A stretch of DNA of 64,000 nt from an uncultured Gemmatimonadales bacterium (lineage in GTDB: Bacteria; Gemmatimonadota; Gemmatimonadetes; JACCXV01; JAHWKZ01): NCBI GenBank assembly GCA_947259315.1, contig CAMYLR010000008.1, forward strand, positions 1 through 64,000. The letters are read 5' to 3'. The position numbers and the translations under genes were made by a program. This document shows positions 28,783 through 36,618 of the stretch, in pieces. The number at the start of each line of letters is the position of its first letter. The stretch's first letter is position 1. The notes under the pieces were generated by a model, which was given only the letters and a program-made list of their open reading frames with translations, did no database searches and was not told where the DNA came from.

Positions 28783-30411
28783 TCATTCTGACGGGGCAGG
28801 GTCACGCACAAGGAAAACGCCACCCCAGGCGTCGTCGTGGACACGTTTCGTCGAGCGTCTGAGTAACTCGATCACGGAGTCACTCATCCAAGGCTCTGGC
28901 GATCGCTGTATGAAAATCGGCGGATCGACCACTTCACCAGTGACGAAAACGCGACCGGGGGCGCGTCGCACGGTGTCGTACAGTTGGGTTACCTCCACTT
29001 CAGTCCGATGGCGGAGCGGGACGATCTCGGCCATGGAATAGTACCGGAGATACCGAGAAAACCCAGAGCTTTCGGTCGTTAGAATCACATCTTTCTCACC
29101 TGCGTTCTCCAGCAGCCACTCGGCCTTGAGCCGATGGCGATCCGACTCCGGGCTCTTCAACATCGCCATACCGCCGATGGCGTTATGAACAAGCAGTGCC
29201 GCCGGCAGAAAGACAATGAGCATCACATTCCTCTCGAGTGGCAACTCATGATAAGCATACCACCCGAAAAGCAGCCAGAAAGGCACCAGCGCAAGGAGCC
29301 ACGCCTCGGGTTGCTCCAGCGTTCCCAAGTAACTGATAGTCGCAAGATAGAGAGCCAGCCACGAGAGCATCGCCAACACGAAGGAGCCCCGGAATTCTCT
29401 CGAGCGCCGAACACCGGCCATCCACAATGTCCAGGCGAACGCGACCACGGCGATCAGCACGGTGACAAAACCCACGACTCCTGTGGGAGGCCAAGCTCGG
29501 AGACCAATCAACTTCTCCCCTTCCAGCCGTTGAGCAGGGAATTCTTCGCTAATCCAAGAACGATAGGCTGGAAACACAAAAAGAAAGTTGCCACTGGCTA
29601 CGACGTGCCCGAGTACCACCGTTGCAATCGAGATGTCCTTTGTTCCCAGGCTTGGCACTATCTCGCCAGCCACGGATTGCGTCGCGGTGTAATGAGGGTA
29701 TTCGACCCGAGCCGCACTCCAGACACCATACCCCACTGGTAAGCACGCGAACACGAAGACGGTCAAGTACGCCACCACCTGCTTCCTGCCAGTCCGAAGC
29801 GCCATGTACAGAGGAGCCGACACCAAAGCCGGGATGACATTCAGGACGTGACTCAAGACCGCCAGTACGCCCAGCAGTCCACCGAATGCGGCACGCCTGG
29901 TCGAGATCGATTGTCCGAGCGTCAACCAGACCAAGCCCAAGGCCAGCAGCGACGCAAGCGCATAGGTCTCAGCCTCGGCGGCGTATCGCCAGAAACCGTA
30001 AGAGAACCCCAAAACTCCGCCAGCCACAATCGCAGACCGTTTGGGAACACCAAGATGCTTCCACAGAACCAACGAAAACACCGTCACGGCGCCCGCGGCC
30101 AGCGCAGCTCCAGCTACAAGCATGAGCGGGAACGAACGATCGACTAGGCCTATCGACTTGCCAATCACAAACAACACCCGCATCAACACCAAATAGAGCG
30201 GATGATAGGGGTGTAGCAGTTGTGAGAACGAAGCTGCTTCTACGTCGTAGGCATACTGGTAGGCATCATCCGCTTCAACGTGTACAGTTGGCGCGGTCAG
30301 CCAGTAGAAGAGGAACCAGCCGCAGAGCAACGTTACCCACGTCTGAGCGCCTCGATGCACAGAGTATCTCATCAGCGCGCCAGGCGATGGATCTGGCTGG
30401 CGCTCACCCAT
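28783..30411 (-). CDS. DUF2723-like multi-pass membrane protein (putative GT-C glycosyltransferase)
   Basis: A 542-residue protein with about eleven hydrophobic segments up to residue 400 and a soluble C-terminal domain. Early landmarks are VEADDAYQYAYDVEAAS, HPYHPLYLVLMRVLF and YGFWRYAAEAETYALASLLAL, the acidic-loop and EAE-Y-AL pattern of DUF2723/TMEM260-type proteins, which are thought to be GT-C glycosyltransferases. The start is uncertain: ATG 30411 (GTG 30414 in front) overlaps the glyoxalase gene, and ATG 30372 is possible. It is flanked by related glyoxalase 3' ends, suggesting insertion. Sugar and acceptor are unknown. Confidence 0.7.
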   Translation of the reverse strand: MGERQPDPSPGALMRYSVHRGAQTWVTLLCGWFLFYWLTAPTVHVEADDAYQYAYDVEAASFSQLLHPYHPLYLVLMRVLFVIGKSIGLVDRSFPLMLVAGAALAAGAVTVFSLVLWKHLGVPKRSAIVAGGVLGFSYGFWRYAAEAETYALASLLALGLVWLTLGQSISTRRAAFGGLLGVLAVLSHVLNVIPALVSAPLYMALRTGRKQVVAYLTVFVFACLPVGYGVWSAARVEYPHYTATQSVAGEIVPSLGTKDISIATVVLGHVVASGNFLFVFPAYRSWISEEFPAQRLEGEKLIGLRAWPPTGVVGFVTVLIAVVAFAWTLWMAGVRRSREFRGSFVLAMLSWLALYLATISYLGTLEQPEAWLLALVPFWLLFGWYAYHELPLERNVMLIVFLPAALLVHNAIGGMAMLKSPESDRHRLKAEWLLENAGEKDVILTTESSGFSRYLRYYSMAEIVPLRHRTEVEVTQLYDTVRRAPGRVFVTGEVVDPPIFIQRSPEPWMSDSVIELLRRSTKRVHDDAWGGVFLVRDPAPSE

Positions 30412-30811
30412 CACCGGTGGAAAATGATATCCCGCCCTCTATCAACTCGATTTCAACCCCATCGGGATCGCGTATGAATGCGATCCGCGGGCCATCTTCA
30501 CTAACCAGGTACGGTCCGCGGTCAAAACCCAGTCCGAGGTCCTCGAGCGATGCCCTGGCTGCATCGAGATCGGTTACGCCAAAGGCCAGATGCCCGAACT
30601 GGTTCCCCAAGTCGTAGCTACGACCATCGTGATTATACGTCAGCTCGATCGCGTGGTATCCCTGTTCGTCGACAAGGAATACCAGAGTCGCATCCGCCCT
30701 TTCGAGCACCTTCCGACGTTGCTCACTGAGGCCAAGAACGTTCGTGTAGAACTCGATCGATCGTTCAAGATCGGTGACGCGAAGCATTGTGTGTAATAGC
30801 TGAGTGCGCAT
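30404..30811 (-). CDS. Glyoxalase I / VOC-family protein
   Basis: A 135-residue metalloenzyme of the vicinal-oxygen-chelate fold, closest to lactoylglutathione lyase, which detoxifies methylglyoxal. The start MRTQLLHTMLRVTDLERS at 30811 follows AGGAGG at a normal distance; longer starts lack support. Motifs are the first metal histidine in LLHTMLRV, SIEFYTNVLG, GYHAIELTYN, FGHLAFGVTDLD and IRDPDGVEIELIE. Two beta-alpha-beta-beta-beta modules fit the length. It stands between the ABC transporter operon and the membrane protein gene. Confidence 0.87.
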   Translation of the reverse strand: MRTQLLHTMLRVTDLERSIEFYTNVLGLSEQRRKVLERADATLVFLVDEQGYHAIELTYNHDGRSYDLGNQFGHLAFGVTDLDAARASLEDLGLGFDRGPYLVSEDGPRIAFIRDPDGVEIELIEGGISFSTGDG

Positions 30812-30901: not shown

Positions 30902-31777
30902 TCAGCGACTCCGCCGCTCCCTCCACGATCGCACAACCTCGGATATATCCCGGCCCTCAACGTCGACTTCGTAGTTGAGGTTCCGCATCGTTTCGGGGGT
31001 GAGAACGTCGGCCAGGTCTGCCAGGGCCTCGGCGAGACGCGGTTCCCTTTCCACCGTTGCCCCTCGTACGACAGGCGCGGCTTGATAGGGCGGGAAATAG
31101 CTCAGATCGTCATCGAGAACGACCAAATCCAGACCGGCGATCTGGCCGTCCGTGGAGTTGGCCACCGCGACGTCAATCTGGTCATCGGCCAATGCGCGAT
31201 ACATGAGACCCAAGTCGAGTTGCCGTATTGAGCCAAACTCCAGCCCATACATCTCTCGAAGACCGGGATAGCCATCGGGCCGAGCCATGAACTCGGGGCC
31301 GAATCCAGCCACCAGATCGGCCCCCCGAGGAGCGAGGTCGGCGATCGATGCAAAGCCCTGCGCTTCAGCATCCGCTCGACGAACGACGAGCGCGAAGGTG
31401 TTCTCGAACCCTAGTGGGTGTGTCCACTCGAGACCCCACCGTTCTCGATAAACACGGCGCACCGTCTGATACACTCGTTCGGGATCGGTGTCGACCGGGA
31501 GCTCAAGCACCGCCGTAAGCGCGGTACCCGTGTATTCCACGTAGACGTCGATTTCACCATTCAACAGGGCGTGGTGGCAAACGAAGGTGCCACCCAGATG
31601 GAATCGACGCTCGACCGAGACCCCACGCGCTTCCAACTCCTGAGCCACGATCTCGCCCAAAACGTTTTGCTCGGTGAAGTTCTTCGTGCCTACGACGACC
31701 GCATCGCTGGGAGTGCAACCACCGAGCACCATCGTCGCGCACATCGTGACGAGCGCGCGCCAAACGTGCTCGCTCAA
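30902..31777 (-). CDS. Osmoprotectant/quaternary-amine ABC transporter substrate-binding lipoprotein
   Basis: A 291-residue periplasmic binding protein of the OpuAC/OsmF type. It begins with a lipoprotein signal ending in the lipobox LGGC (Cys about residue 21). GTKNFTEQNVLGEIVAQ, DVYVEYTGTAL near residue 75 and FFPPYQ-like SYFPPYQAAPVV near 235 are hallmarks of binders for glycine betaine, choline and related cations; the ergothioneine binder EgtU of other bacteria belongs to the same group. It overlaps its permease gene by 4 nt. Divergence from the EgtD-EgtB gene makes ergothioneine or hercynine a plausible ligand (inference). Confidence 0.85.
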   Translation of the reverse strand: MSEHVWRALVTMCATMVLGGCTPSDAVVVGTKNFTEQNVLGEIVAQELEARGVSVERRFHLGGTFVCHHALLNGEIDVYVEYTGTALTAVLELPVDTDPERVYQTVRRVYRERWGLEWTHPLGFENTFALVVRRADAEAQGFASIADLAPRGADLVAGFGPEFMARPDGYPGLREMYGLEFGSIRQLDLGLMYRALADDQIDVAVANSTDGQIAGLDLVVLDDDLSYFPPYQAAPVVRGATVEREPRLAEALADLADVLTPETMRNLNYEVDVEGRDISEVVRSWRERRSR

Positions 31778-32445
31778 CGTTCGCGATCCCTAGTCGCGGC
31801 CGGCGTGGCCAGCGTCAGCCTCTTCTCCATCGCGCCGAGCAAACCGTCCGCCAACAACGCCAAGAGCGCGGCTGGCAACGCGCCGGCCAGAATCACTGTG
31901 TCGTTGACCATCGCCAGCCCCTGGAAGATGTACACACCAAGCCCACCAGCCCCGATAGCGGCTGCGATAGTAGCGATCCCCACCGACGTGACGGTGGCCA
32001 CTCTGACACCGGCCAAGATTATTCCTGCTGAAAGTGGCAACTCGACGCGCATCAAGAGCTGCCGATCGGTCATTCCCATTCCCCGAGCCGCTTCGCGCAA
32101 GGCAGGGTCTGTTCCTCGAATTCCAGCGAACGTGTTGCGGACGATCGGAAGGATCGCGTAAAGGGTGAGCGCTACGATAGCGGTACTCGCACCCACCCCA
32201 CCAAACAAGGGCAGTGGAATTAGAAAACCGAACATCGCCAGACTGGGAATCGTCTGGACGACATTGGCAAGCCCCATCACCGGTTTTTCCACGCGACCAC
32301 TCCGTGTGGCCCAAACACCAAGCGGTACCCCGATCAAAATCGCCCCGCCGACGGAGATCGCTACGAGCAAAAGGTGTTCCGCCGTCAGATTAGCCATCTC
32401 TTGACGATGGTCGGTGGCGTAACGCCACAGATCAAACATCTCCAC
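31774..32445 (-). CDS. Osmoprotectant-type ABC transporter permease
   Basis: A 223-residue inner-membrane subunit with about five or six membrane segments. The coupling motif REAARGMGMTDRQLLMRVELPLSAG (EAA loop) near residue 130 contacts the ATPase. It is close to ProW/OpuCB-type permeases and is not fused to a binding domain, unlike EgtU. It overlaps the ATPase gene by 14 nt upstream and the lipoprotein gene by 4 nt downstream. Confidence 0.88.
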   Translation of the reverse strand: MEMFDLWRYATDHRQEMANLTAEHLLLVAISVGGAILIGVPLGVWATRSGRVEKPVMGLANVVQTIPSLAMFGFLIPLPLFGGVGASTAIVALTLYAILPIVRNTFAGIRGTDPALREAARGMGMTDRQLLMRVELPLSAGIILAGVRVATVTSVGIATIAAAIGAGGLGVYIFQGLAMVNDTVILAGALPAALLALLADGLLGAMEKRLTLATPAATRDRER

Positions 32446-33202
32446 CGCCTACCCGATCCCCGAAGATCTCGGCCAGCGCGTGGATCTCTGGGTGGTCTGT
32501 CTCGAGAAACGTGTCCGGTGTCTCTAGTGCGCCCAGCGTGCCAGCTGTCAGCAGGCCAATCCGATGTCCAACGCACAGCGCCTCACGCACATCGTGGGTA
32601 ACGAACAGCGCGGCCTTGCCGAGCTGCCGCATGAGCGCCTTGAACTCTCGCTGAAGACTGGCTCGAGTGACTGGATCCAAGGCACCGAACGGCTCATCCA
32701 GTAACAGCAACGGCGGGTCAGCCGCCAGGGCTCGAGCGACGCCAACCCGCTGGCGCTCACCTCCGGAGAGCTGGTGGGGTCGGCGTGGTCCGTACGCGTC
32801 AGCGGGAAGACCCACCATGTCCAGCAGCGCTCGCGTGCGCTCCTGAATCCGGTCCGGATCCCATCCCAACAACTCCGGAACCAACCCCACGTTGCTGGCT
32901 ACCGTCATGTGCGGAAAGAGGCCGATCTCTTGGATCACATAACCGGTGTTGCGGCGTAGCTCCACCGGATCCCAATCCGAGGTCAAACGACCGCCGACGC
33001 GCACGACACCCGCCGTCGGATCTAGCAGTCGGTTCACCAACTTCAGTACGGTCGTCTTCCCAGCCCCCGACCGACCGACGAGAACGATTGTCTCTCGCTC
33101 GTTGACCGTAAGCGAGAAACGATCGAGAATCGTGTGTCGACTATCGATCGAGTAGGTAACGGCCTCGAATTCGACCGGAATCGAGGTTGCGTGCGTATTC
33201 AC
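32432..33202 (-). CDS. Osmoprotectant-type ABC transporter ATP-binding protein
   Basis: A 256-residue ATPase with Walker A GRSGAGKTT near residue 43, Q-loop VIQEIGLFPHMTV, signature LSGGERQRVGVARAL near 145 and Walker B LLLLDEPFGALDP. It lacks the C-terminal CBS domains that ionic-strength-gated OpuA ATPases carry. The start is GTG 33202. Only 24 bp separate it from the divergent EgtD-EgtB gene, so its mRNA leader must be very short or the promoter lies within neighbouring coding sequence. Confidence 0.9.
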   Translation of the reverse strand: MNTHATSIPVEFEAVTYSIDSRHTILDRFSLTVNERETIVLVGRSGAGKTTVLKLVNRLLDPTAGVVRVGGRLTSDWDPVELRRNTGYVIQEIGLFPHMTVASNVGLVPELLGWDPDRIQERTRALLDMVGLPADAYGPRRPHQLSGGERQRVGVARALAADPPLLLLDEPFGALDPVTRASLQREFKALMRQLGKAALFVTHDVREALCVGHRIGLLTAGTLGALETPDTFLETDHPEIHALAEIFGDRVGGGDV

Positions 33203-33226: not shown

Positions 33227-35584
33227 ATGGCGACGGTCACCCAAGCGGTCGAGCTGCTTTTCGCCCGTCCCGGAGCGCCACCGTTCACCACACGACGGGG
33301 TGACGGGTGGGTCGTCCACGTCGACCAAACACCCACGTCCGAAGAAGCCTTCGCCTACAGCGTAGCTCGCGGTCTCTCCGACCATCCGCGATGGCTTCAC
33401 TGTCGATACCTCTACGACGAGACCGGCAGTGAGTTGTTCACCAAGATCACCGAGCAACCCGAATACTACCTGACCCAGGCAGAAAACCAGATACTGAAGA
33501 AGCAGGCGGATGAAATCCGCGAGGCGGTGGGTCCGCTACCCCTCATGGAACTTGGTGCTGGTACCGCGGTCAAGACGCAGCAACTTCTCAAGGCGTGGCT
33601 CGAGACCGATGGGGTTGCTGAGTACTTGCCGCTCGATATCGACCCTTCCGTCCTGACCCAGGCGGCCGAGCGACTCACGACCGAGCTACCGGGACTATCC
33701 GTCACCGGGCTCGCAACATCCTACGAGCGCGGGCTCGATCTGTTGGGCAAGCACCAACCGCTCTGTCTGGTCTTTCTGGGTTCGTCGATCGGGAACTTCA
33801 ATCTCGAACAAACAGATATGTTCTTGGCGCGACTTCGAGCGTGCCTCTCGCCCGATGACACATTCCTGCTCGGCGTCGACTTGGTCAAGGATATCCCGCA
33901 GTTAGAAGCCGCTTACAACGACGCCGAGGGCGTGAGCGAGGCTTTTACCCGCAACCTGTTTCATCGGATGAATCGCGAGCTGGAGTCCAACGTCCCGGTC
34001 GATGCGATCGACCACGTCGCTTTCTGGAACGATCGATTGCAGCGTATCGAGATATACGCCCAATTCCAGGAGGAAGTGCGGGTCGAGCTTCCGTCGATCG
34101 ACCGAAGGTTTCGGGTGGCGGCCGGCGAGATGGTCCTCACCGAAATCAGCCGCAAATACCAACTGGCGAAAATCGAGTCCGACTTGGCGCGGTTCGGTTT
34201 CCAGTTGGAGAGAGCGTTCACCGACGATGAGCAACGTTTTGGCTTGCTGCTGTCCCGCCGCATCGCTCCCACCGGCGGACCACCGCCATGGACACCTTTT
34301 GCAGCCGGGCTCCGTGCAGCGCGCAGTCAGACGCTCAGGCTCCTGAGCAGTCTGAGCGACGACCAGCTCAAGCAACAGGTTCTCCCGATCTTGAGCCCGA
34401 TAGCCTGGGACCTGGGTCACATAGCCGAGTTTGAGGAGTTGTGGTTGGTCAACGCGATCGATGGGCTAAGCGAGAACGCTGACGTGCACGACCGACTCTC
34501 CAAAGATTACGATGCGATCGCCACCCCACGTGGAGTTCGTGGGCAGCTCGAGCTCCCGGCAAGCCCCGACATAATGGGTCAGCTAAGAAACGTGCGGCGC
34601 GAGGCCCTGAGGCGCGCCCGCGAGGTAGACCTCGACGTGGACCAACGACTGACGAAGGACGGCTTCGTATACCACATGGTTGTCCAACACGAGCAACAAC
34701 ATCAGGAGACGATACTCCAGTCCATCGCGCGGATGGAAAACTTCGTGTACGAGCCAGCTTACGGAGAGAGGCCGCCAAAAACGACCTTGCCACCAGACAC
34801 CGAGATGGTCGTTATCCCGTCAGGGTTATTTCCAATGGGCACAGATCGAGAGGCCGATACCTACGACAACGAACGCCCCCCCCACTGGGTGGACGTCGAT
34901 GGGTTCTGGATCGATACCGCGCCGGTGACAGCCGGGCAGTTTCTCGAGTTTTTCGACCGCGGGGGTTACCAACGACGTGAATGGTGGTCCGAGGAGGGCT
35001 GGGCGTGGCGCACAGAGCATGAGATCGAGCGCCCGCTCGGCTGGCGGCGCTCGGAAATCGGCTGGGAGGCGATCGAGTTTGGACGCATCGAGCCCCTCGT
35101 TCCCACACGACCCGTACAGCACATCTCGTGGTACGAGGCATGCGCCTACGCGCGCTCGGTGTCCAAGCGACTGCCAACCGAAGCCGAGTGGGAGAAGGCT
35201 GCTGCCTGGGACCCCGAAGTGCGGCTTACGCGCCGCTTCCCGTGGGGTGACAGCCCACCTGAGTCACATCACGCCAACCTCGGTGCCGACATCTTTGGTC
35301 CCGCCCCCGTCGGCGCTTTTCCCGCCGGTCGTTCCTTCTTTGGCTGTCACCAAATGCTCGGTGACGTCTGGGAATGGACGGCCAGCGAGATGGAGGCGTA
35401 CCCTGGCTTTGAGGCCTACCCGTACCCGGAATACTCCCAAGTGCACTTCGGCCAGGGCCACCGGGTTCTTCGCGGAGGGTCATGGGCCACCGGCCGATCG
35501 GTCGCCAGGAATACTTTCCGCAACTGGGATCTCCCCCAGCGGCGCCAAATCTTCGCTGGTTTTCGCTGCGCCCGGGACGCTTGA
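33227..35584 (+). CDS. egtDB: Fused EgtD-EgtB: histidine trimethyltransferase and ergothioneine sulfoxide synthase
   Basis: A 785-residue two-enzyme fusion for ergothioneine synthesis. Residues 1-335 are EgtD, the SAM-dependent methyltransferase making hercynine from histidine: LYDETGSELFTKITEQPEYY, the SAM loop LMELGAGTAVKT near 107, DIDPSVL and FLGSSIGNFN. Residues 356-505 are a DinB_2 domain with iron-ligand histidines in DLGHIAEFEE near 397 and QHEQQHQE near 487. Residues 523-785 are an FGE-sulfatase domain with IPSGLFPMGTD, RLPTEAEWEKAA, WGD, GDVWEWTAS and LRGGSWATG. EgtB oxidatively joins cysteine or gamma-glutamylcysteine to hercynine. The order matches fungal Egt1. No egtA, egtC or egtE is visible nearby. 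Confidence 0.9.
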   Translation: MATVTQAVELLFARPGAPPFTTRRGDGWVVHVDQTPTSEEAFAYSVARGLSDHPRWLHCRYLYDETGSELFTKITEQPEYYLTQAENQILKKQADEIREAVGPLPLMELGAGTAVKTQQLLKAWLETDGVAEYLPLDIDPSVLTQAAERLTTELPGLSVTGLATSYERGLDLLGKHQPLCLVFLGSSIGNFNLEQTDMFLARLRACLSPDDTFLLGVDLVKDIPQLEAAYNDAEGVSEAFTRNLFHRMNRELESNVPVDAIDHVAFWNDRLQRIEIYAQFQEEVRVELPSIDRRFRVAAGEMVLTEISRKYQLAKIESDLARFGFQLERAFTDDEQRFGLLLSRRIAPTGGPPPWTPFAAGLRAARSQTLRLLSSLSDDQLKQQVLPILSPIAWDLGHIAEFEELWLVNAIDGLSENADVHDRLSKDYDAIATPRGVRGQLELPASPDIMGQLRNVRREALRRAREVDLDVDQRLTKDGFVYHMVVQHEQQHQETILQSIARMENFVYEPAYGERPPKTTLPPDTEMVVIPSGLFPMGTDREADTYDNERPPHWVDVDGFWIDTAPVTAGQFLEFFDRGGYQRREWWSEEGWAWRTEHEIERPLGWRRSEIGWEAIEFGRIEPLVPTRPVQHISWYEACAYARSVSKRLPTEAEWEKAAAWDPEVRLTRRFPWGDSPPESHHANLGADIFGPAPVGAFPAGRSFFGCHQMLGDVWEWTASEMEAYPGFEAYPYPEYSQVHFGQGHRVLRGGSWATGRSVARNTFRNWDLPQRRQIFAGFRCARDA

Positions 35585-36618
35585 TCGGGCCCGGAGAGCT
35601 CGCTAAACGACTGGCAGGGTTGGCGCTCAACATCGATGAGTGTCGGATCGAGGTCGGCTCGGTTCCGACCGTCGGTTATTACGATGGAGCGCCCCGACCC
35701 ACCGGCACGATCTCGTTGATCGGCGGCCATGATGTCGGTCGCGGTGAGAACGTCGATTGGACTCCGGAAGATCAGGCAGCGTTCAGGGACGCCGTGCAAG
35801 ACAAGGTTCCCATCGGATCAACAACGGTCGGCGATCTGACCCAGCGACTGGAAGGCGACCTTGTCGCGCATCACCGAGCGGCGATCGAAGCGGCAGCTAT
35901 CGACTTGGCGTTACGTCAAGCCGGAAGCAACCCTTTTGTTGTGGCTGGTTTGCCGGCGAAACCGGTGACTTTTTGTTGGTCGATTGGTCACGATTTGGCA
36001 ACCACCGCCGGCGGACTGTTACAGGCGGTGCGCGCAACTCTGGAAGCCGAACCAGGCGCGCGCTTCAAGCTCGACGTGCCGGCTGAAGGTTGGCCCGAGT
36101 CGATGTGGTCGGAGCTTGCCACGATTGGCCGGGTGCGGACCGTCGATTTCAAACGCCAAGGCTCACCCGGCTCTGTAGCGCTTGCGCATCAGTACTTGCC
36201 TGAGGCTTGGCTGGAAGACCCACCCTTGGAAGCGCTCGAGGACGACAGCGAACAGTCACACGCGTGGGCCGACCGGGTAGCCGTCGATGGTTACGTGACG
36301 CGAGTCGCCGATTTGGCCGTATTACCCTTTCGACCGACGGCGATCAACGTGAAAGCGCCGCGCATGGGCGGCCCACTCGAGGCCCTTCGCTGTATAGATC
36401 TATGTTGTCAAAGCGGCTGGGCGTGTTACATCGGTGGGATGTTCGAGGTCGGTCCGGGTCGGCTTCAGGCTCGCGTTTTGGCTTCGCTCTTCAGCAGTAG
36501 CCAATGGAACGACCTCGCGCCGATACGCGTCTGTGATTCGGATCCGTATCCGCCAAGTCCGTTACCGATGTCATCCGGTTTTCGTGGCTTCGGGGAAGCA
36601 ACCGTTATGGCCGACTAG
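35581..36618 (+). CDS. Enolase-superfamily protein coupled to EgtD-EgtB
   Basis: From TTG 35581, overlapping the egtDB stop as TTGA, 345 residues are encoded; ATG 35482 is an alternative lying 103 nt inside egtDB. The C-terminal barrel has the enolase-superfamily layout: RFKLDVPAEGW, VDFKRQG, LEDPPLEAL, AVDGYVTRVADL, INVKAPRMGGPLEALRC and YIGGMFEVGPGRLQA. Candidate metal ligands are the acids in VDF, LED and AVDG, and the lysine of NVKAPRMGG is the expected base. The usual K-x-K on strand 2 reads K-L-D. These enzymes remove a proton next to a carboxylate. The reaction is unknown; OSBS or dipeptide-epimerase relatives are possible. Confidence 0.75.
   Translation: MIGPGELAKRLAGLALNIDECRIEVGSVPTVGYYDGAPRPTGTISLIGGHDVGRGENVDWTPEDQAAFRDAVQDKVPIGSTTVGDLTQRLEGDLVAHHRAAIEAAAIDLALRQAGSNPFVVAGLPAKPVTFCWSIGHDLATTAGGLLQAVRATLEAEPGARFKLDVPAEGWPESMWSELATIGRVRTVDFKRQGSPGSVALAHQYLPEAWLEDPPLEALEDDSEQSHAWADRVAVDGYVTRVADLAVLPFRPTAINVKAPRMGGPLEALRCIDLCCQSGWACYIGGMFEVGPGRLQARVLASLFSSSQWNDLAPIRVCDSDPYPPSPLPMSSGFRGFGEATVMAD

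Follow-up and report, generated by a model that had tools for sequence, protein, structure and literature searches.

An enolase-superfamily gene coupled to egtDB in Gemmatimonadales encodes a candidate lyase of ergothioneine biosynthesis

INTRODUCTION

How is ergothioneine synthesis completed where no egtE accompanies the other pathway genes? A locus of an uncultured Gemmatimonadales bacterium raises this question (contig CAMYLR010000008.1 of assembly GCA_947259315.1, positions 1–64,000; hereafter the window, 64,000 nt). In it, a gene for a fused EgtD–EgtB protein (egtDB) is followed directly by a gene for a protein of the enolase superfamily. The five-gene egt cluster has been described as Actinobacteria-specific, egtE is generally absent outside that group, and the C–S lyase of the pathway is mostly unassigned outside Actinobacteria and fungi (PMC7278568). 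An earlier note on the window proposed that the enolase-superfamily gene replaces egtE, which encodes a pyridoxal 5'-phosphate (PLP)-dependent lyase. Our analysis lends this idea partial support, in that it survives tests of linkage, of egtE absence and of identity with o-succinylbenzoate synthase (OSBS).

RESULTS

The enolase gene stays next to egtB

The enolase gene overlaps egtDB by four nucleotides (Table 1), confirming the coupling that the earlier note had described. To assess linkage elsewhere, we searched 395 genomes of the phylum with an enolase profile. Strong matches were confined to this order, together with a paralogue in the source genome. An orthologue lies directly 3' of egtB in all six genomes that have one, representing four genera, two families and one order. 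These are the source genome (G000), a congener (G001), three other members of the same family (G002–G004) and one member of another family of the order (G005). Identity to the source protein is 76% for the congener, 49–51% for the other three family members and 44% for G005. A search of contigs with the single protein found the congener only. The egtDB fusion is complete in G000, G002, G003 and G004, the G001 contig starts inside egtB, and the G005 locus contains both egtD and egtB.

Four of the six gene pairs show an NTGA stop/start overlap (TTGA in G000 and G001, GTGA in G002 and G003). For the other two, the gap between egtB and the enolase gene is at most ∼40 nt, and a common start codon is not assignable. 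Outer neighbors vary, with thrS coming next in two genomes and other genes in the rest. That adjacency to egtB is kept while the other flanks differ argues for functional coupling of the enolase gene to ergothioneine synthesis, a conclusion we regard as well supported. The linkage check suggested in the earlier note thus came out positive. The gene is also under purifying selection, as judged from the G000–G001 pair (nonsynonymous divergence, dN, 0.16; synonymous divergence, dS, 1.13).

Profile matches place the product in the enolase superfamily

Taken singly, the protein gave weak matches that are nonetheless consistent with an enolase (MR_MLE_C, 19 bits; TIGR01928, 33 bits). A seven-sequence profile (A1) was then compared with the PDB. 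It matched N-acylamino acid racemase (NAAAR)/OSBS entries 1wue (E = 9.6e-16) and 1sja (E = 1.4e-14), as well as an L-Ala-D/L-Glu epimerase (E = 7e-7). At the profile level, homology to the superfamily (muconate-lactonizing-like subgroup) spans both the capping domain and the barrel. By these profile matches, the product is a remote enolase-superfamily member. No chain of methylaspartate ammonia-lyase was among the PDB matches of profile A1, and no viral contig matched the enolase profile. An AlphaFold model built from two sequences only was too poor for a reading of the pocket (mean predicted local distance difference test score, pLDDT, 51.6; predicted template modeling score, pTM, 0.37).

Active-site residues were placed by alignment to the Amycolatopsis NAAAR/OSBS (1sja), and conservation was scored over 15 family members. 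The three predicted metal ligands (D189, E212 and D236) and the candidate base K258 are invariant in all 15. Profile and alignment bear out the superfamily assignment, metal acids and base lysine of the earlier note. Two departures from the canonical site, KxK to KxD on strand 2 and DxN to DxK on strand 3, co-occur in 14 of the 15 proteins (D165 in 14/15); the exception, a haloarchaeal protein, carries neither swap. In one other family of the phylum, profile matches of 61–88 bits were seen, and the three that can be aligned have the ordinary KxK.

The earlier note read the altered K-L-D as a hint of an unusual active site. The alteration is real, and it leaves one strand-6 lysine, compatible with elimination. 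But K-L-D is also present in the unlinked paralogue and in haloarchaeal homologues, so it is no signature of ergothioneine synthesis; across the aligned sequences it is common to the subfamily and does not single out the egt-linked branch. Sixteen positions, including W60, M287 and W309, are invariant in the egt-linked group yet different in the sister group.

The two-lysine pair of NAAARs and dipeptide epimerases was looked for and not found, the sole canonical lysine being that of strand 6. With one such lysine, racemization or epimerization by two bases, as in YkfB (K162/K268; PMC5808125), is not the default expectation, whereas a single-lysine elimination is possible by analogy with methylaspartate ammonia-lyase, in which K331 serves β-elimination beside a metal-bound carboxylate (PMC7241714). 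A possible substitute for the lost second lysine is K191 on strand 3. MenC (OSBS) was rejected as an identity: KxD replaces KxK in all egt-linked copies, and no MenB scored over the cut-off in the source genome (best 145 versus 342.7 bits), which is 95.8% complete. With MenB absent, the enolase gene is not explained as MenC.

A type I EgtB with no EgtC or EgtE detected

In the fused protein, the histidine N-methyltransferase occupies residues ∼44–344 (Methyltransf_33 of Pfam, 319.7 bits; TIGR03438 of NCBIfam, 304 bits) and the sulfoxide synthase residues ∼360–782 (TIGR03440, 380.3 bits; cut-off 360). The latter half scored 335 bits with Mycobacterium thermoresistibile EgtB (MthEgtB, 4x8b) versus 168 bits with the type II EgtB of C. 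thermophilum (CthEgtB, 6qki). The Y..Y, R..R and FRNWDxPxRRQIFAG motifs are retained wherever visible; the catalytic Tyr is preserved, and the D416/R420-type FRNWDxPxRRQ motif occurs in the six enolase-locus genomes. By these comparisons, the EgtB of the fusion is of type I, the γ-glutamylcysteine-using kind. Residues R87, R90, D416 and R420 of MthEgtB-type enzymes contribute to γ-glutamylcysteine binding. MthEgtB prefers γ-glutamylcysteine, whereas CthEgtB prefers cysteine (PMC10903977).

The egtDB–enolase locus matched no PLP lyase among the Pfam and NCBIfam models, TIGR04343 (EgtE) included, which agrees with the earlier note. Genome-wide, no EgtE exceeded the cut-off in the source organism, the best match being a SufS encoded within a suf operon (90 versus 400 bits). 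EgtE was over cut-off in 0 of the 395 genomes, and EgtD in 160. Neither egtA nor egtC occurs in any of the six enolase loci, and no EgtC match above 24 bits was obtained in any of the six genomes, several of which are less complete than the source genome. YbdK-type ligases, present in five of the six, may supply γ-glutamylcysteine.

For comparison, we surveyed further egtD neighborhoods, 85 stretches that represent 80 distinct loci across the phylum, calling type I by the EgtB C-terminal motif. Among the other type I loci, 37 of 45 have egtA and/or egtC within ∼7 kb; none of the 45 has a class V PLP enzyme or an enolase. Where EgtB is of type II or another kind, neither egtA nor egtC was present (0/19). 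The absence of EgtC was considered as a unique feature of the enolase loci, but this is weakened by the many egtA-bearing type I loci (families f5 and f7) that lack EgtC genome-wide. EgtC-like proteins encoded beside egt genes of the phylum (L126, L175, L177, L184, L191, L197, L200 and L202) score ∼155–208 bits, slightly short of the NCBIfam cut-off of 218.65. That threshold probably excludes genuine EgtC from beyond the Actinobacteria.

Four loci of family f9 (L121, L123, L182 and L194) have egtD near an open reading frame, ∼1141 aa long at L121 and L123, that begins like a molybdopterin oxidoreductase and includes a segment similar to SufS. This arrangement resembles the route of the metallopterin-dependent ergothioneine synthase (MES), and the phylum thus seems to have at least three routes to ergothioneine.

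Relatives without egt neighbors

The source-genome paralogue follows tyrS and is absent from the other genomes sampled in the phylum. It is ∼52% identical to haloarchaeal plasmid proteins and only ∼34% to the egt-linked group. Sequence comparison makes horizontal transfer of this gene likely. Homologues on haloarchaeal megaplasmids show ∼27–37% identity to the egt-linked group. A DsrE-family gene lies just 5' of two of them (L098:6556-6897 and L099:6429-6770), a possible link to sulfur; further copies are near genes for VOC and stress proteins.

Neighboring genes

Divergent from egtDB are genes for an OpuC-type transporter, and thrS, recognized by sequence, is convergent with the enolase gene downstream. 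The transporter adjoins egtDB in G000, G002, G003 and G004. Its binding protein belongs to a quaternary-amine binding family of which EgtU is a member; ProX and the binding domain of EgtU are among its PDB matches. Of the 45 type I loci outside this order, 24 have a transporter of this type next to their egt genes (L126, L129, L150, L161, L163–L165, L167, L175, L177, L179–L181, L185, L188–L190, L192, L193, L197–L199, L201 and L202). This distribution suggests a transporter of ergothioneine or hercynine in the phylum. Residues specific for ergothioneine in SpEgtU include F293, G244 and E375 (PMC9732360). Beyond the transporter, at 28783–30414 on the minus strand and adjoining a VOC/glyoxalase gene, is a gene for a membrane-type protein of 543 aa without a Pfam match.

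Table 1. Positions of the enolase gene, its predicted active-site residues and associated genes (window coordinates unless a contig is given)
Feature	Position	Strand	Basis
Enolase-superfamily gene, 345 aa, TTG start; proposed PLP-independent C–S lyase	35581..36618	+	sequence, profiles, orthologues 3' of egtB in five further genomes
egtD–egtB fusion gene, 785 aa	33227..35584	+	Pfam and NCBIfam
TTGA overlap: egtDB stop TGA, enolase-gene start TTG	35581..35584	+	sequence
Strand-2 motif K163-L164-D165 (KxD for KxK)	36067..36075	+	1sja alignment
Strand-3 motif D189-F190-K191; D189 predicted metal ligand, K191 for usual Asn	36145..36153	+	
E212, predicted metal ligand, strand 4	36214..36216	+	invariant 15/15
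D236, predicted metal ligand, strand 5	36286..36288	+	invariant 15/15
K258, candidate general base, end of strand 6	36352..36354	+	aligns with OSBS/NAAAR strand-6 lysine; invariant
E289 in GGMFE motif	36445..36447	+	invariant
OpuC-type ABC transporter ATPase, divergent from egtDB	32432..33202	-	Pfam ABC_tran
OpuC-type permease	31774..32445	-	Pfam BPD_transp_1
OpuC-type substrate-binding protein	30902..31777	-	Pfam OpuAC, 210 bits
Paralogue after tyrS	G000 contig C3:195161-196117 (L045:9177-10160)		

DISCUSSION

We tentatively propose that a Mg2+-dependent enzyme of the enolase superfamily acts in ergothioneine biosynthesis on the EgtDB product, as C–S lyase, and we give this proposal slightly less than an even chance. 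Its substrate, product and mechanism we infer as follows. EgtDB would join hercynine with γ-glutamylcysteine (or cysteine) as a sulfoxide conjugate. The cysteine carboxylate of the conjugate would be chelated by the metal held at D189, E212 and D236. K258 would abstract the α proton, and the enolate would then expel the β sulfur as ergothioneine sulfenate. Thiol reduction, a step shown for EgtE (PMC4493562), would convert the sulfenate to ergothioneine. If the substrate were hercynyl-γ-glutamylcysteine sulfoxide, the other fragment would be γ-glutamyl-dehydroalanine, giving glutamine and pyruvate; from hercynylcysteine sulfoxide, pyruvate and ammonia would result.

Given a type I EgtB and the missing EgtC, the substrate may be the γ-glutamyl conjugate rather than hercynylcysteine sulfoxide. 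A PLP lyase would be unable to cleave that conjugate because its cysteine amine is blocked; PLP enzymes require a free amine and hence act only after EgtC. The nearest solved relatives of the enolase use N-acyl amino acids or dipeptides, so it could work without EgtC. A bolder version has this single enzyme replacing both EgtC and EgtE by eliminating from hercynyl-γ-glutamylcysteine sulfoxide, with the haloarchaeal sisters as lyases for other γ-glutamylcysteine conjugates. We think this version rather unlikely.

The proposed chemistry resembles that of methylaspartate ammonia-lyase in being a β-elimination for which a single lysine first takes the proton adjacent to a carboxylate bound by the metal. 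It differs in the bond broken (C–N there, C–S here), and that enzyme is no close sequence kin of the enolase. The nearest solved relatives, NAAAR/OSBS (1sja, 1wue and 3qld) and L-Ala-D/L-Glu epimerase (1jpd), share the metal acids and the strand-6 lysine, and their substrates have a free carboxylate; KxD for KxK, DxK for DxN and the egt linkage set the enolase apart from them. EgtE and Egt2 convert the EgtB product to ergothioneine sulfenate, the outcome proposed here for the enolase, but they are PLP-dependent, of another fold and without homology to the enolase. EgtC, the class II glutamine amidohydrolase of the γ-glutamylcysteine route, is likewise not homologous. It hydrolyzes an amide, in contrast to the proposed β-elimination, and would be bypassed if the γ-glutamyl conjugate is the substrate. 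The haloarchaeal 'hypothetical proteins' (such as WP_227356819.1) and the paralogue are of the same subfamily, at ∼29–37% identity, and have the same site, yet differ in lacking egt genes alongside.

Several observations weigh against a lyase role. All six egt-linked cases form one clade. The paralogue, 36% identical to the enolase, has the same site signature with no egt genes nearby, and the haloarchaeal homologues combine a KxD...DxK...E...D...K site with neighborhoods free of egt genes. Although the source genome does lack egtE, as the earlier note expected, so does the phylum at large, and its absence here thus carries little weight. Elsewhere in the phylum, EgtD-bearing genomes, many of them with a type I EgtB, lack both this enolase and a PLP lyase linked to egt, and EgtC too is missing from many; some unlinked enzyme must act there and could act here. 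EgtA proper is absent, the only GCS2 protein of the source genome being the YbdK-type ligase. All six enolase-locus genomes encode a γ-glutamyltranspeptidase. Finally, our literature search found no enolase-superfamily C–S lyase and no paper on the superfamily together with ergothioneine.

Some of this evidence fits a C–S lyase step performed by a PLP enzyme encoded away from the locus (SufS, a cystathionine lyase or another aminotransferase), as must be the case in relatives, with a different function for the enolase within or close to the pathway. EgtD without EgtE is the rule in the phylum, PLP alone has low C–S lyase activity (PMC4493562), and a host without EgtE or Egt2 makes ergothioneine (PMC11993508). 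This explanation, which we hold to be improbable, does not account for the coupling of this particular gene to egtDB in the clade. The coupling also bears on a role in handling hercynine, ergothioneine or a derivative, in which the enolase, still relying on Mg2+-assisted α-proton abstraction, would be a betaine epimerase or racemase, or a repair or catabolic enzyme tied to the transporter. Betaine-acting enzymes of the superfamily exist, such as 4R-hydroxyproline betaine 2-epimerase. A quaternary-amine transporter at this and so many other type I loci would suit such a role, as would W60, M287 and W309, peculiar to the egt-linked group. However, the enolase gene is coupled to egtDB and not to the divergent transporter, which did not appear in the sequenced flanks of the G005 gene. 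Moreover, two-base epimerases need both lysines (PMC5808125), and Asp replaces that of strand 2 here. We consider such a role unlikely.

Comparable doubt attaches to a general detoxification β-lyase, or another enzyme for γ-glutamylcysteine or cysteine conjugates, that was recruited beside egt, with the haloarchaeal and paralogous proteins serving other conjugates. The shared KxD/DxK site of the haloarchaeal sister group, the small thiol γ-glutamylcysteine found in several haloarchaea (PMC7278568), and the DsrE, VOC and stress-protein genes near some copies are in keeping with it. Yet the haloarchaeal neighborhoods are varied with no thiol pathway seen in them, and the γ-glutamylcysteine link is a class-wide correlation. 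Least probable by far is a MenC, NAAAR or dipeptide epimerase that sits beside egtDB with no part in ergothioneine metabolism. The best model and PDB matches do belong to those families, but this explanation is opposed by the Asp in place of the KxK lysine in every egt-linked copy, by the absence of MenB, and by linkage to egtDB in six of six genomes despite changing neighbors.

Should the enolase prove to be the C–S lyase, a PLP-free enzyme needing only Mg2+ would add a new reaction to the much-studied enolase superfamily. The ergothioneine pathway would be shorter by one or two enzymes, which would be useful for fermentative production. It would also provide a first handle on an enolase subfamily common to Gemmatimonadota and haloarchaea.

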